From positions 168,491-216,095 of the forward strand of contig CAIUPP010000021.1 in NCBI GenBank assembly GCA_903901045.1: DNA of 47,605 nt, given 5' to 3'. The DNA is from an uncultured Planctomycetota bacterium (GTDB lineage Bacteria; Planctomycetota; Brocadiia; CAIUPP01). Shown here in pieces: positions 21,882 to 40,666 of the stretch (within the stretch, counting starts at the first letter, position 1; every line of letters begins with the position of its first letter). The position numbers and the translations under genes were made by a program. Below the pieces are notes generated by a model. The model made no database searches and was not told where the DNA came from. It worked only from the letters and a program-made list of their open reading frames with translations.

Positions 21882-21889
21882 GAGCTTAC

Positions 21890-22037
21890 AAATGGTTTTG
21901 CTCCGTTGAAACCATCGGGACAGCGTGTCGTTCTTCGCGTGGTCTAGGTGGGGACACAAAACTTTCCTTTGGAAAGTATTGTGTCCCCACCGGCCCGGCC
22001 CGCCAACCGGGATGGTTTCAACAGAGCAAAATGGTTT
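21890..22037 (-). mobile_element. miniature inverted-repeat element, full copy A, with 9-bp target duplication
   Basis: The element is 21899-22028 (130 bp). Ends are TGCTCYGTTGAAACCATC as an 18-bp terminal inverted repeat with one mismatch. It is flanked by a perfect 9-bp direct repeat AAATGGTTT (21890-21898 and 22029-22037). The centre is a long hairpin (about 20-bp arms, TTT loop) beginning GTGGGGACACAA. Its reverse complement aligns end to end with copy B at 27152 at roughly 90% identity. No transposase is encoded. Confidence 0.88.
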
Positions 22038-22120
22038 CATAACCCATTTGTGGGCGTTAACGACGTCGTTCGCGCCAATGATTTCGCGGGTTGGATAACC
22101 CGCGCCACAGTTATGAAACC
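22033..22120. repeat. second palindromic element beside the MITE, with REP-like hairpin
   Basis: Perfect 11-bp inverted repeat GGTTTCATAAC (22033-22043) / GTTATGAAACC (22110-22120) encloses an inner hairpin CGCGGGTT-GGAT-AACCCGCG (22085-22104). Copy A of the MITE sits directly at its left end. It forms the rest of the 320-nt gap before rhaB. Confidence 0.6.
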
Positions 22121-22140
22121 GGTTGTAGTCGTTGTTCGAT

Positions 22141-22176
22141 GTCCTTTATGTCCTTGCAGTCCTTGATGTCCTTGTT
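22141..22176. repeat. 9-bp tandem repeat, four units
   Basis: GTCCTT recurs every 9 bp (22141, 22150, 22159, 22168) with variable three-base spacers (TAT, GCA, GAT, GTT). It is non-coding and lies 26 nt before the rhaB start. Confidence 0.7.
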
Positions 22177-22201
22177 CGTTCACACAGGCAGGGCATGTGC
22201 C

Positions 22202-23668
22202 ATGAAAACCGTTAATTTCGCAGCCGTGGACCTTGGCGCGGAGAGTGGCCGCGTAATGCGCGTGGGCTTCGACGGCGCGCGGTTCGAGTTGGAGGCCGCG
22301 CACCGCTTCCCCAACGGGCCGGTGCGCGTGGGGGAGACGCTCCACTGGGATGCCCCGAAACTGCTCGCGGAAATCAAGAAGGGACTGCGCCTCTGCGCTC
22401 AGAAAGCCCCGCTGGCCGGCATCGGCGTGGACACGTGGGGCGTCGACTTCGGCTTGCTGGGTGCGCGGGATGAATTGCTGGAGAACCCCGTCCACTACCG
22501 CGACCGGCGCACCGATGGCATGATGGATGAGGCGTTCCGCATTGTGCCGCGCCGGGAGGTGTTCGAGCGCACCGGCATTCAGTTCATGCAGCTCAATACG
22601 CTGTACCAGGTGCTCTCCCTCGCGCGCCAACGCCCGGAATTCCTGGCCCAGGCGCGAACCCTCCTGACCATGCCCGACCTGCTCAATTTCTGGCTCACGG
22701 GGCGCAAAGTCGGGGAGTTCACCATCGCCACCACCACGCAGATGTACGACCCGCGCGCCGGGGATTGGGCGCGTCCGATGCTTGAACAACTGCGCCTGCC
22801 CACCGGAATTCTCCCGCCGATCGTCAAGCCCGGAACGGTCCTGGGGCCGCTGCTTGACTCCGTCGCGGCGGAGACAGGAATTCGCGGCGCGCCGGTCATC
22901 GCGCCCGCCTGCCACGACACCGGCTCGGCGGTCGCCGCCGCGCCCCTCTTCTCGCCGCACTCCGCGTACATCAGTTCCGGCACCTGGTCGCTCGCCGGCG
23001 TTGAGGTCGCCGCGCCCGTCATCACCCCGGTGACCTACGCCGGGGGCTTCACCAACGAAGGGGGGGCCAACGGCACCGTCCGCCTGCTCCGGAACATCGG
23101 CGGACTCTGGCTGCTTCAGGAATGCCGCCGCACGTGGACCGACGAGGGAAACGTGTATAGCTATGACGACCTGACGCGCCTGGCCGCCGCCGCCCCCGAG
23201 TTCGCCGCATTCGTGGACCCGGACGCTCCTGAATTCGGCCCGCCGGGTGACATGCCCGCGCGCCTTCGCCACTACTGTGATCGCACGAACCAGCCGCCCC
23301 CCGATAGCCACGCCGCCCTCGCCCGCTGCATCCTCGAAAGCCTCGCGCTGAGGTACCGCATGACCATCGAGAACCTCGAAGCGGCGCTGGGGTGGAAAGT
23401 GGACCGAATCCACATCATCGGCGGCGGCTCGCAGAACACCCTTCTCTGCCAGATGACCGCCGACGCCACGGGGCTGCCCGTGCTGGCCGGCCCCGTCGAG
23501 GCCACCGCGCTGGGCAACGCCCTCATCCAGGCGCTGGCCACGGGCCACCTCGCCTCAATCGCTGAAGGGCGCGAAGCCGTCAAGCGCTCCTTCTCCCTCA
23601 TCCCCTACGACCCGCATCCGTCCGAAGCATGGCAGTCAGCATATCAAAGGTTCAGGCGGATGCTGTGA
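22202..23668 (+). CDS. rhaB: rhamnulokinase
   Basis: A 488-residue FGGY-type sugar kinase, almost the length of E. coli RhaB (489). It has the N-terminal phosphate loop AAVDLGAESGR, a GVDTWGVDFGLL block, VHYRDRRTDGM, the LNTLYQ segment, the domain-2 GTWSLAGVE block and the C-terminal IGGGSQN adenosine site, all typical of rhamnulokinase rather than xylulokinase. It phosphorylates L-rhamnulose to the 1-phosphate (EC 2.7.1.5). The ATG at 22202 follows GGCAGGGCATGTGCC; the open frame upstream runs through repeats and is discarded. The 320-nt repeat-filled gap may separate it from the aldolase operon, so it may need its own promoter. Confidence 0.92.
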   Translation: MKTVNFAAVDLGAESGRVMRVGFDGARFELEAAHRFPNGPVRVGETLHWDAPKLLAEIKKGLRLCAQKAPLAGIGVDTWGVDFGLLGARDELLENPVHYRDRRTDGMMDEAFRIVPRREVFERTGIQFMQLNTLYQVLSLARQRPEFLAQARTLLTMPDLLNFWLTGRKVGEFTIATTTQMYDPRAGDWARPMLEQLRLPTGILPPIVKPGTVLGPLLDSVAAETGIRGAPVIAPACHDTGSAVAAAPLFSPHSAYISSGTWSLAGVEVAAPVITPVTYAGGFTNEGGANGTVRLLRNIGGLWLLQECRRTWTDEGNVYSYDDLTRLAAAAPEFAAFVDPDAPEFGPPGDMPARLRHYCDRTNQPPPDSHAALARCILESLALRYRMTIENLEAALGWKVDRIHIIGGGSQNTLLCQMTADATGLPVLAGPVEATALGNALIQALATGHLASIAEGREAVKRSFSLIPYDPHPSEAWQSAYQRFRRML

Positions 23669-23692
23669 TTCCCGGAGCGCAGAAGAAGAGAA

Positions 23693-23739
23693 AACGAAAA
23701 ACCGCTGCCGTGTCCCTTCACACAGCAGCGGTTTTCGTT
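23693..23739. terminator. bidirectional terminator between rhaB and csp
   Basis: Stem of about 15 bp (AACGAAA and ACCGCTGC pairing with GCAGCGGT and TTTCGTT) with a loop of about 16 nt. A-rich on the left and T-rich on the right arm ends, it serves both converging genes. Confidence 0.8.
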
Positions 23740-23764
23740 ATGACTTAGGCTTGTTCAGCCTGAG

Positions 23765-23971
23765 TTAGCTGACCTTCGTCACGTTCTTCGCGCGCGGGCC
23801 CTTCTGGCCGGCTTCGGTCTCGAACGTCACGACATCGTTCTCAGCCAGGGACTTGAAACCGCTGCCCTGGACTGCGCTGTGATGCACGAAGACGTCTGGG
23901 CTGCCGTCGTCCGGCGTAATGAACCCAAAGCCCTTCTGATCACTGAACCACTTCACCTTACCTTGCGCCAT
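23765..23971 (-). CDS. cold shock domain protein (CspA family)
   Basis: A 68-residue single CSD protein with RNP1 KGFGFIT and RNP2 VFVHHS, normal family length. It binds single-stranded RNA/DNA and acts as an RNA chaperone. The start at 23971 follows GGAGGAAAG; a longer frame upstream falls in the leader. A strong promoter at 24252-24280 predicts an untranslated leader of about 270 nt, a usual trait of cold-inducible csp genes, so thermoregulation through leader folding is likely. It is monocistronic, with terminator 23693-23739 downstream. Confidence 0.95.
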
Positions 23972-24251
23972 GTTTCTTTCCTCCATGCGTTGACTCGGCA
24001 CGAACCCGCGTCCCGTCGGGCCGCCACACTGGCGTCCGATACCGGGCACGGACGATCCGCTTTCCGAGCGATTAGGTTGCGCCGGTAAACGCACAGCTTG
24101 GAGACGGTCTGAACAGGAACAGGTGCAAGGGGAGGAGAAGGGAAGGAAGACACCTTGCGGTGTCCGCTCATCTGCCTGTGCACAACGGAGAACCAGTTAC
24201 AGTGCGCTCGAACTGCTGTGGCCCTCATGGGCCTAACCTAACAATGCTCGT

Positions 24252-24280
24252 ATCATACGCTATCGGAGGCGCGGCGTCAA
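24252..24280 (-). promoter_or_regulatory. sigma-70 promoter of the cold shock gene, long 5' leader
   Basis: On the minus strand: TTGACG (plus 24275-24280), 17-bp spacer, TATGAT (plus 24252-24257). The 376-nt stretch 23972-24347 holds only this promoter, the csp leader (including a GACACC/GGTGTC hairpin near 24149-24164) and a small GCGTTC/GAACGC hairpin (24324-24338) after xerD. Confidence 0.7.
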
Positions 24281-24347
24281 GCGAGAGTATGCGGAATGTA
24301 AAGCGCAGCGCGCAAACCGGCGGAGCGTTCTCCGAACGCGCCCGCCC

Positions 24348-25250
24348 TTACCCGCGCGGGTGGAACTGTTTATGGACGCTCTTGAGCCTGGAGTGGTCCA
24401 CATGCGTGTAGATCTGAGTCGTGGCGATATTGGCGTGTCCGAGCATCTCCTGCACCGCGCGCAGGTCGGCGCCATGCTCCAGAAGGTGCGTGGCGAAGGA
24501 GTGGCGCAGCGTGTGCGGGGAGATGCGCCGCCCCACCCCGGCCTTCAGCGCGTACTGGCGCACCATCGTCCAGAGGCGTTTGCGCCCGATCGGCCCGCGC
24601 CGCCCGGGGAAGAGCCAGGGGGAAGGGGCATCCCCCAGCAGCGTCTCGCGCGCGCCGGAGAGGTAATCGTTCAGCGCCGCCGCTGCGCGCTCGCCCACCG
24701 GCACAATCCGCTCCTTGGACCCTTTCCCGAAACAGCGCACGTAGCCCAGGTCCAGGTGCAGCGCCTCCAATTTCATGTTCGCCACCTCGCTGACGCGCGC
24801 CCCCGTGGCGTAGAGCAGCTCCAGCAGCGCGCGGTCGCGCTTCCCCATCGGCGTCGAGGCGTCCGGCGCGGCCAGAAGCGCCGTCACCTCCGGCTCCGTC
24901 ATCACCTCCGGCAGGTACTTCGTCAGCTTGGGGGAATCCAGCAGCGAGGTGACATCCTTCGCCACCTCTCCCTCCGACCAGAGGAAGCGGTAAAAGGTCT
25001 TCACCGCCACCAGGCTGCGCGCGACGGAGTTGATGTGCAACCCGCGTTCGCGTTCGTGGACCATGAATTTCAGCACCGTCGAGGCGCCGGCGAGGCGCGC
25101 GTCATCCTGCCCCTGCTCGTGCAGGAAATAAACGAAGCGCGTCAGGTCCTGCCGGTACGCATCGACCGTCATGGGGGAGAGGCCGCACTCGGCGACCAGG
25201 TAATCCATGTACTGGTTGACCAGGTGCGCCGATGGCAGCGTGTCAGTCAT
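24348..25250 (-). CDS. xerD: tyrosine recombinase XerD/XerC
   Basis: A 300-residue site-specific recombinase with an N-terminal SAM-like core-binding domain (1-105) and the catalytic domain. Catalytic residues are in place: Arg152 (GARVSEV), Lys176 (GKGSKER), His246 and Arg249 (HTLRHSF), His272 (GHANIAT) and the nucleophile Tyr281 (IYTHV). Length and sequence fit the chromosomal dimer-resolving XerC/D group, not an integron or phage integrase. The ATG overlaps the end of the glycosyltransferase gene by 8 nt, so translation is coupled. No dif-like site was recognised nearby. Assigning D rather than C is a judgement. Confidence 0.88.
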   Translation of the reverse strand: MTDTLPSAHLVNQYMDYLVAECGLSPMTVDAYRQDLTRFVYFLHEQGQDDARLAGASTVLKFMVHERERGLHINSVARSLVAVKTFYRFLWSEGEVAKDVTSLLDSPKLTKYLPEVMTEPEVTALLAAPDASTPMGKRDRALLELLYATGARVSEVANMKLEALHLDLGYVRCFGKGSKERIVPVGERAAAALNDYLSGARETLLGDAPSPWLFPGRRGPIGRKRLWTMVRQYALKAGVGRRISPHTLRHSFATHLLEHGADLRAVQEMLGHANIATTQIYTHVDHSRLKSVHKQFHPRG

Positions 25251-26766
25251 GCGCCCCCTCCGGGCTGCGCGTCAACAGCGTCCAGTCCAGCCCGCCGGGC
25301 CATGCGTGGCTGGGGAAGCTTGCGCCATCCAGCGGCTTCCACCCCTCATCCAGCAGCATCTTTGGCGCTGCGCTGAAGGGGCGCGACACCGGGCTCTGGC
25401 AACTGATCAGCCAGAGTCGGGCGGCGCGCTTCTCCCGCGCCTGTCCCCGGAGCAGCGACTCCGCCGTGACGTTGCGCGTGTCCACGTCGCGTGTCTGGTA
25501 GTACTCGAAGGCATAGCCGACGTAGCCGGGGTTGAACATCACCAGGTCGCCGGGTTGCAGGCGCTCCTGGACGTCGCTCACCATGCCGCGCCAGTCCTCC
25601 TTCTGGAAGGAGGCGGAGAAGTAGTCGCGCAGTCCGAAGAGGTTCAGCGCCAGCAGCGCGGCGACGACGTAGCATACCGGCGGCACGCGCGTCTCGCGCG
25701 CGGGGGCGGAGTTCTCCTTTCGCCGCGCCGCGCACAGGGCGATGATCAGCAGCGGCTGCAGGAAGATCAGGTGCTTCGCCTCGTAGTAATGCACCCGCGG
25801 CATCGGCATCAGCAGATACCCGAGCAGCGGAACGAAGAAGAGCACGCTCAGCGCCAGCGCAGGCTTCCGGTTGCGCCGCGCCAAAAGCGCCACGGCGGCG
25901 GCGATCACCAGCGCCAGGCCCAGCCAGAGGCCCAGCGTGGGCATCACGCTCCAATCCATCGGCCCCACCCCCCACGACGCGATGCCGCTGATTACCTCCT
26001 GCGCGGAAGGCGCGCCCACCGCGTCTCCCACCGTCCGGATGCTCTCCTGCAGCTTCGCCGTCGTCACGCGCAGCACGAACCAGTACCAGGGCAGGAACGC
26101 CAGCCCGATCAGCAGGTGCGCCATGAACCATTCGCGCCACTGCACTCTGCGCTTCCATGCGAGAATGACGTAGAGCAGCGCCAGCGCGCCGATGGTGAGG
26201 ATGCAGAGGGCGTAGGTGTACAGACTCAGCAGCCCCAGCAGGGCATAGAGCAGCCACAGCTTCCAGCCGGCCCCGCCGCACCGGGAGACGATCCGCAACA
26301 GCAGGTAGGTCTGCGCCAGGAAGAGGGCGGTCGCCAGCGTATGGAGGCGCGCCTCCTGGGAATAGAAAATCTGGAAGTAGCTGAACGCCATCACCACCCC
26401 GGCGGCGAGGGCGCCCCGGCGACCGGTCAGCCGCCGCGCGATCAGGAAGGTCAGCCACACCACCGCCACGCCTAGGAATACCGCCGGGAGCCGCGCAAAG
26501 GCGTCCCCGCTCCCCAGCCGCAGCCAGAGCCACTCGATGATCTGGAACAGCGGGGGGTGCGCGTCGGTGTAGATCACTTCATTCATCATGACGGGGAAGG
26601 AGGAGGTCGCCTTATGGACGGTCATCACCTCGTCGAGCCAGAGCGACTTTGCCCCCAAATCCCAGAGCCTCAGCAGCAGGGCCGCCAGCAGGATTGCCGT
26701 CAGCCACAGCGCCTGGCGCTTGCGCGCGTGGGAAGCCTCCATCGGATTTGGGTTGGGCCGTTTCAT
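25243..26766 (-). CDS. GT39/ArnT-like integral membrane glycosyltransferase
   Basis: A 507-residue polytopic membrane protein with about ten hydrophobic segments and the catalytic-loop Asp45-Glu46 (SLWLDEVMT) after the first membrane span, as in PMT/ArnT-type glycosyltransferases that use lipid-linked sugar donors. The conserved SQEARLHTL segment follows. A less hydrophobic periplasmic C-terminus contains a YYQTRD segment. It probably transfers a sugar from an undecaprenyl-type carrier to a lipid or protein. It overlaps xerD by 8 nt. A small lipoprotein gene lies upstream on the same strand. Acceptor and donor are unknown. Confidence 0.83.
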   Translation of the reverse strand: MKRPNPNPMEASHARKRQALWLTAILLAALLLRLWDLGAKSLWLDEVMTVHKATSSFPVMMNEVIYTDAHPPLFQIIEWLWLRLGSGDAFARLPAVFLGVAVVWLTFLIARRLTGRRGALAAGVVMAFSYFQIFYSQEARLHTLATALFLAQTYLLLRIVSRCGGAGWKLWLLYALLGLLSLYTYALCILTIGALALLYVILAWKRRVQWREWFMAHLLIGLAFLPWYWFVLRVTTAKLQESIRTVGDAVGAPSAQEVISGIASWGVGPMDWSVMPTLGLWLGLALVIAAAVALLARRNRKPALALSVLFFVPLLGYLLMPMPRVHYYEAKHLIFLQPLLIIALCAARRKENSAPARETRVPPVCYVVAALLALNLFGLRDYFSASFQKEDWRGMVSDVQERLQPGDLVMFNPGYVGYAFEYYQTRDVDTRNVTAESLLRGQAREKRAARLWLISCQSPVSRPFSAAPKMLLDEGWKPLDGASFPSHAWPGGLDWTLLTRSPEGAHD

Positions 26767-26812
26767 ACGCGCATTCTAGCGAAAAACCAGGCTCAGCGCG
26801 ATGGAACTGCCG

Positions 26813-27025
26813 TCAACTGGGCGCAATGGGGTCGTGGTACGTGCTGGGCTTGTGCGTCGTTGTCGTCGTTTCGACCGGCTGAGAGGAAGTCTCCTCCTGA
26901 ATCTGCTGGGAGGACTCCGGCGTCGGCGTTGGCGCAGGGGGGGCTTCCTTCCCGCACCCGGCGAACAGAAAGCCGCCCGCGCACAGCAGCGCCGGCAGCA
27001 GGCCTGTGGCATGAATCCGCGTCAT
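26813..27025 (-). CDS. small Pro/Thr/Ser-rich lipoprotein
   Basis: A 70-residue protein starting at 27025 behind AGAGGAGA. A lipobox FAGC with Cys24 follows a short signal peptide, so it should be membrane-anchored. After the Cys the chain is low-complexity (Pro, Thr, Gln, Glu, Ser) with a TTTTTH stretch and no recognisable domain. It is 46 nt upstream of the glycosyltransferase gene and may be cotranscribed. It is real by its ribosome site, lipobox and position, but its function is unknown. Confidence 0.65.
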   Translation of the reverse strand: MTRIHATGLLPALLCAGGFLFAGCGKEAPPAPTPTPESSQQIQEETSSQPVETTTTTHKPSTYHDPIAPS

Positions 27026-27142
27026 GGCATCTCCTCTTGTCGAATGGAACAAATCCACCACTCCCCCTGAGTATATCCTCCTTTCCGCGCAATTCAAAAC
27101 ATGCCCGGCATGGTTTGCCGCGCCGGGCGCGCCGGTGTATAG

Positions 27143-27290
27143 TTACGGAAATGCTCTGTTGAAACCATCCCGGCTGGCAGGCCGGGCCGGTGGGGACACA
27201 ATACTTTCCAAGGGAAAGTTTTGTGTCCCCACCTCGACCACGCGAAGAGCGACACGCAGCCACGATGGTCTCAACAGAGCATTACGGAAA
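27143..27290 (+). mobile_element. miniature inverted-repeat element, full copy B, with 9-bp target duplication
   Basis: The element is 27152-27281 (130 bp), the same length as copy A. The terminal inverted repeat TGCTCTGTTGARACCATC has one mismatch between ends. It is flanked by a perfect 9-bp direct repeat TTACGGAAA (27143-27151 and 27282-27290). The central hairpin has GTGGGGACACAATACTTTCC and its near complement around an AAG loop. It occupies much of the 368-nt gap between the lipoprotein and mgtA genes. Confidence 0.9.
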
Positions 27291-38553: not shown

Positions 38554-38905
38554 TTCACCGCAGAGACGCAGAGGACGCAGAGAACGACGAGACGGGGCAA
38601 CGAGAATGACAGCGAGTTTCACCGCAAAAAGCGCGAAGAACTCGCAGCGAATGACGGGCCGGTGGAGACACAATATTTTCCAAAGGAAAGTTCTGTGTCC
38701 CCACCTCGACCACGGGAAGAATGGCACACTGCCACGATGGTTTCAACAGGGCGAAATAGCTTCTAGCCCATCTTGTTATCTTGTCCCATCGTCTCGTTTC
38801 CGTTACCCCGTCCCGCCGTTCTTTGCGTCTTTGCGTGAGACGCTGTCGCCGTTTCCGGCGTCTTCTTCCCTCCGTACTCCGCGTTCTTCGTGTCTCTGCG
38901 GTGAA
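38554..38905. repeat. 352-bp segment bounded by an inverted repeat, enclosing MITE copy C
   Basis: TTCACCGCAGAGAC (38554-38567) recurs inverted at 38892-38905. The left end continues as CGCAGAGGACGCAGAG direct repeats, and a related TTCACCGCAAAAAGCGCG lies at about 38619. This fills most of the 502-nt gap before the TRIC gene; no CDS is supported there. Confidence 0.6.
38655..38752 (+). mobile_element. miniature inverted-repeat element, degraded copy C
   Basis: It matches copy B from the GGGCCGGTGG block through the hairpin and the right arm, ending GATGGTTTCAACAGGGC. The left terminal repeat is missing. No target duplication can be identified. Confidence 0.75.
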
Positions 38906-40621: not shown

Positions 40622-40666
40622 AGTGGGGACATAAAACTTTCCTCTGGAAAGTATTATGTCCCCACT
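40622..40666 (-). repeat. core-only MITE hairpin, copy D
   Basis: Only the central palindrome is present (21-bp arms, TCT loop, one mismatch). Relative to copies A and B the C-G pair in GACAC/GTGTC is changed to T-A on both arms, a compensatory change. It lies in the 326-nt gap before dnaK. Confidence 0.75.

Follow-up and report, generated by a model that had tools for sequence, protein, structure and literature searches.

A family of short non-coding transposable elements sharing one 18-bp end and 9-bp target duplications in an uncultured Planctomycetota bacterium

The window, a 47,605-bp stretch of one contig from the draft genome of an uncultured Planctomycetota bacterium, contains two complete copies (A and B) of a 130-bp MITE bounded by an 18-bp terminal inverted repeat, TIR1. 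A tyrosine recombinase gene lies between them. Copy A is located inside a different MITE (MITE2), and a truncated third copy and a hairpin of the same family as the MITE core, without TIR1 arms, occur further along the window. A tRNA gene, the sole match in an Rfam scan of the window, lies about 180 bp ahead of the third copy. The features are listed below; copies A and B were placed by sequence, end matches and duplication, and the duplications by sequence.

21889-22125, plus strand: MITE2, ends like CAACCGGTTTCATAAC, with copy A inserted close to the left end and TA flanks at 21887-21888 and 22126-22127
21890-21898: left 9-bp target duplication of copy A, AAATGGTTT
21899-22028, minus strand: copy A, 130-bp MITE, TIR1 ends at 21899-21916 (one mismatch) and 22011-22028 (perfect)
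21948-21990: REP-like hairpin of copy A, 43 bp
22029-22037: right 9-bp target duplication of copy A, AAATGGTTT, which is also the outer end of MITE2
24348-25250: tyrosine recombinase gene (Phage_integrase and SAM-like N-terminal domains)
27143-27151: left 9-bp target duplication of copy B, TTACGGAAA
27152-27281, plus strand: copy B, 130-bp MITE, TIR1 ends at 27152-27169 (perfect) and 27264-27281 (one mismatch)
27190-27232: REP-like hairpin of copy B, 43 bp
27282-27290: right 9-bp target duplication of copy B, TTACGGAAA
38401-38473: tRNA gene
38656-38753, plus strand: third copy, one-armed, truncated and diverged, made up of the hairpin core (starting GGGCCGGT), the right arm and TIR1 with two mismatches
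40623-40665: hairpin of the MITE-core family without TIR1 arms

The coordinates, lengths, ends and duplications that an earlier note on this DNA had given for copies A and B are exact on the sequence, and the identity between them, put there at about 90%, was measured as 92%. Both copies are 130 bp long, lie in opposite orientations and carry one perfect and one single-mismatch TIR1. TIR1 matches in the window number 5 against 0.02 expected, and both copies fold far more strongly than shuffled sequences (z about -9). The element was said to encode no protein, and its 130 bp indeed have no coding capacity and hold no transposase. In the third copy, TIR1 is followed by AAATAGCTTC and then TA. 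This truncated copy, the solo hairpin and the position of copy A inside another MITE had not been noticed before.

The genome is a 4.77-Mb draft in 154 contigs, and other copies with 9-bp duplications, which the earlier note proposed to look for, are present in it. At least 40 places resemble the 130-bp element, and there are 165 TIR1 sites (up to three mismatches) compared with none for the reversed pattern. Near-matches to TIR1 in 97 relatives amounted to one single site in total, so the family is not common to the nearest sampled genomes, and plasmid sequences gave no match to the element. Sampled contig stretches, from which TIR1 ends were collected, yielded 143 distinct ends and 26 spans between paired TIRs for which both flanks were present, two loci giving overlapping pairs. 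A perfect 9-bp direct repeat borders 10 of the 26 spans (A, B, L003, L004, L006, L011, L013, L047, L071:6612 and L107) and a repeat matching at eight of nine positions borders three others (L005, L009 and L012); by our own arithmetic, flanks agreeing at eight or more positions are expected by chance at about 1 in 10,000 per site. The duplications lie at unrelated sites and differ in sequence from site to site, and the recurrence of one duplication length at many such sites upholds their use in the earlier note as evidence of transposition. Some elements with both TIR1 ends have no direct repeat and carry the inverted flanks GAAGCTGTTT...AAACAGCTTC instead.

Interiors of TIR1-bounded elements range from 104 to 379 bp. 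The hairpin type is mostly 130 bp, a type reading CTGTTCCG.../CTGCGAACCCCC... spans 104 to about 379 bp, a third begins GTC... (for example L047, 279 bp), and further types exist. Duplications of 9 bp are also found on elements with non-hairpin interiors (L047, L071:6612 and L107). Since several unrelated interiors share one 18-bp end, it is the ends and not the core that define the element. Many draft contigs stop inside elements of the CTGTTCCG.../CTGCGAACCCCC... type, and copy numbers are therefore minima. One TIR1-TIR1 span of 1.7 kb (contig C123), considered as a transposase carrier, appears to hold an ordinary gene. Copies A and B are thus members of a genuine MITE family with more than 100 full or partial copies in the genome. 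A literature search for the 18-bp TIR1 end in print found none, and as far as the literature searched shows the family is new, while its kind is well known.

The earlier note expected an autonomous IS with matching ends elsewhere in the genome. An IS of this description exists in Gemmataceae, with 9-bp duplications, but was not found in the element's own assembly. An exact 18-mer scan of about 85,000 genomes returned 17 stretches; we estimate that a search space of 257 Gb would give about 7 exact matches by chance, and several of those obtained look like such matches. Ten stretches (L091, L092, L095, L097, L099, L100, L102, L103, L104 and L106), from genomes of Gemmataceae (Planctomycetes) and one untyped bacterial genome, have a single IS end in common. 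The complete Gemmataceae IS is 985-987 bp long with exact TIR1 ends and was found on several contigs. Perfect 9-bp duplications flank it at L103 (CGCCGGAGT) and L164 (TGTGCCAGT), and none were seen at three other copies. MITEs of 102 bp and 163 bp that have ends of this kind and are flanked by perfect duplications are present in one of these genomes too.

The coding sequence of the Gemmataceae transposase is split between two frames that overlap around an A-rich run (G preceded by AAAAA or AAAAAA; L103, L104, L164 and L166), an arrangement that suggests programmed frameshifting in the 987-bp IS. With the frames joined by inference, the protein scores 143.7 bits against the NF033579 model 'IS5 family transposase' (cut-off 140). 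PF01609 is found in its second part, and PF13737 matches weakly and over the N-terminal part only. Of the DDE families offered in the earlier note (IS5, IS4 and IS1), IS5 fits.

Searching the element's own assembly with the Gemmataceae transposase gave no match, and matches to PF01609 there were limited to an IS1380-like gene and a single IS427-like fragment. The PF13737 search gave no match, and neither did its controls. Viral contigs held no relative of the Gemmataceae transposase. An IS256-type partner was rejected, as PF00872 was absent while the positive control matched. A 460-aa PF01609 gene on contig C23 was likewise set aside, not being matched to TIR1 ends; by its sequence it looks like an IS1380-family transposase. 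Repeats are often missing from draft assemblies, so that the missing transposase is not proof of absence, and the partner may be lost, or collapsed or unbinned in the draft genome. In a Phycisphaerales genome (UBA12270; G103) a related end, TGCTCTGTTGAAAACATC, occurs at about 37 sites (L158 and L173) and bounds elements some 130 bp long whose palindromic interior is different and whose flanking repeats are imperfect.

IS903-group elements have repeats of about 18 bp and 9-bp duplications, and those of the IS427 group duplicate 2 bp (PMC3281130, Table 2). The lengths of end and duplication seen here fit the IS903 group of the IS5 family. We consider it about 90% probable that an IS5-family (IS903-type) DDE transposase moves the non-autonomous copies A and B in trans. 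The enzyme would recognise the 18-bp end TGCTCTGTTGAAACCATC and make a 9-bp staggered cut, giving the 9-bp duplications, and the 43-bp hairpin would be a REP-like palindrome that became enclosed by two TIR1 ends and is carried along as a passenger. The mover of the copies in this genome is probably a relative of the 987-bp Gemmataceae IS. That IS is known from other genomes, and the link to the mover therefore rests on end identity and on the length of the TSD.

The insertion of copy A can be followed in MITE2. The left end of MITE2, interrupted in the window, is intact in three other copies (L195, L196 and L197); in two of these the right end, intact in the window, is interrupted by another TIR1 element. 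MITE2 copies are thus reciprocal paralogous empty and filled sites for TIR1 insertion, and the uninterrupted sites that the earlier note sought in close relatives were found for copy A as paralogues. Genome-wide, 71 of the 143 TIR1 ends adjoin the outer flank GAANCNGTTT, and TA precedes 40 of those 71. This flank forms the outer end of MITEs bordered by TA, a family whose ends read GAACCGGTTTCATAAC or GAAGCTGTTTCAAAAC (window 21889-22125; L195-L204). The same end accompanies an IS427-like transposase fragment (L061, C110:1-260), which scores best against the IS5 model NF033580, below its cut-off. Clean TIR1 insertions have the target consensus G, 9 bp and then C in A/T-rich surroundings, which fits the TA-family outer end. 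Taken together, the 21-bp targets show greater self-complementarity than sites drawn at random from the genome (p about 0.006). It does not exceed what a permutation of half-sites gives, and accordingly belongs to the shared consensus and not to palindromes within each site. The outer end of the TA-duplicating IS427-type MITE is a preferred target of TIR1 insertion, and where it lies on one side only (A, L005 and L113) this is the outcome of simple insertion. Doubly flanked elements may have arisen when TIR1 copies at the two ends of a single host MITE recombined, or may derive from movement as TA-type units.

The second of these origins would mean that about half of the copies also move as TA-duplicating IS427-type units with a longer end, GAAGCTGTTT plus TIR1, two transposases thereby using nested ends. 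We regard this as possible but unlikely. The counts of GAANCNGTTT and TA given above agree with it, as do the flank and TA on both sides of L010, L053 and L071:16241 (and, more diverged, of L114 and L122) and the presence in the genome of the IS427-like fragment and of MITEs with GAACCGGTTTCATAAC ends. It does not account for the 9-bp duplications at A, B and elsewhere, however; double flanks would equally result if TIR1 elements entered both ends of an IS427-type MITE and then recombined, and target preference alone can place the flank on one side, the target consensus fitting the IS427-type end. Such movement would be compatible with the IS903-type explanation of the 9-bp duplications.

The 43-bp hairpin, named as the core in the earlier note, is present in both copies, but it is a separate REP-like repeat and does not define the MITE. 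Its half-sites occur 102 times forward and 98 times in reverse (about 100 copies) in this genome and not at all in 57 relatives. Among 53 hairpins examined, a sample biased towards TIR1 loci, 18 had no TIR1 nearby, 24 had one arm and 11 had both. Hairpins without these ends, together with the other interiors between the same ends, set the hairpin apart from the MITE. Solo hairpins stand in longer palindromic surroundings (GGTGGATAAAAT...ATTTTATCCACC) or as neighbouring pairs, like REP clusters (L044 1-120; L184 480-620). In REP/RAYT systems a GT(A/G)G head is recognised by the enzyme; the hairpins here often start GTGG, positioned inside the stem.

One-armed copies (L014-L030, L074, L083, L113, L123, L126 and window 38656-38753) break off, with few exceptions, at one constant position 8-9 nt beyond the hairpin, the sequence there being hairpin-ACCTCGACC in one orientation and hairpin-ACCGGCCC in the other. 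One possible cause of this fixed end is that the core moves independently. Tentatively, and with rather little confidence, one may picture a mobile unit of about 56 bp, made up of the hairpin and the adjoining 8-9 nt to its left and right (GGGCCGGT-hairpin-ACCTCGACC), for which a Y1/HUH enzyme would be the mover; joined to a TIR1 arm, the unit would end either at the DDE TIR or at the hairpin boundary, making a two-mode hybrid of DDE MITE and REP.

A view of the repeats as chiefly REP/BIME-type palindromes that a RAYT (Y1, HUH) spreads on single-stranded DNA, with the TIRs secondary, is improbable. The roughly 100 hairpins, many without TIR1, and the fixed distance from hairpin to end in one-armed copies could be read in this way, as could a RAYT-like Y1 gene (L067, C54:29539-29877) with related, not identical, hairpins GTCGGGACAYAATACTT on both sides. 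Y1 transposition proceeds without a 9-bp duplication, however, and such duplications also border the TIR1 elements with other interiors (L047, L071:6612 and L107). IS200/IS605 members have neither TIRs nor larger TSDs (PMC2817692). For copies A and B a RAYT origin is contradicted by their 9-bp duplications; for the solo hairpins it may hold. That the repeats reflect segmental duplication or assembly artefact is scarcely credible: the draft does have 154 contigs, many ending within TIR1 elements, but the exact duplication differs at each site, diverged copies have unique sequence (the divergence of the one-armed copy in the window argues against an artefact there too), and the same ends with 9-bp duplications occur in independent assemblies of other species.

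Several described systems come close to the present one. According to the passages on it in PMC6382973, MITEAba12 of Acinetobacter is 113 bp long with ends GGCTTTGTTGCACAAA and a 9-bp TSD. It resembles the TIR1 element in being short and non-coding, in its ends, in the 9-bp duplication and in having no homology to its IS, ISAba12, outside the ends; a REP-like hairpin core is not reported in those passages. MITEAba12 differs in TIR sequence (GGCTTTGTTG... against TGCTCTGTTG... in the TIR1 element) and in interior and, as that account has it, its parent IS co-resides in the genome. The IS903 group resembles the present case in TIRs of about 18 bp and a 9-bp TSD, and the Gemmataceae partner transposase is of the IS5 family; members of the group are about 1050 bp long with a single frame and have PF13737 as their model, whereas the Gemmataceae IS has 987 bp and two overlapping frames and the window element is gene-less (PMC3281130). 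REP/RAYT systems likewise have a high-copy palindrome and related inverted hairpins flanking a Y1 gene, but here many palindrome copies lie inside a DDE-type MITE, and membership of the RAYT group is putative (PMC2817692, PMC3116915). IS elements that target REP sequences (PMC1525189) also have a repeat as preferred target; in the present case insertion favours a TA-duplicating MITE, at its outer end, and not a REP.

These results add an undescribed MITE superfamily with one end and several interiors. Its exact 18-bp ends tie the family to a concrete IS5-family IS of Gemmataceae, which makes its mobilisation testable. The genome presents a clear nesting of small elements, in which an IS903-type MITE has the end of an IS427-type MITE as its preferred target and a REP-like hairpin as cargo. 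The one-armed copies with their fixed end raise the question of whether REP-like palindromes can travel with parts of DDE elements.
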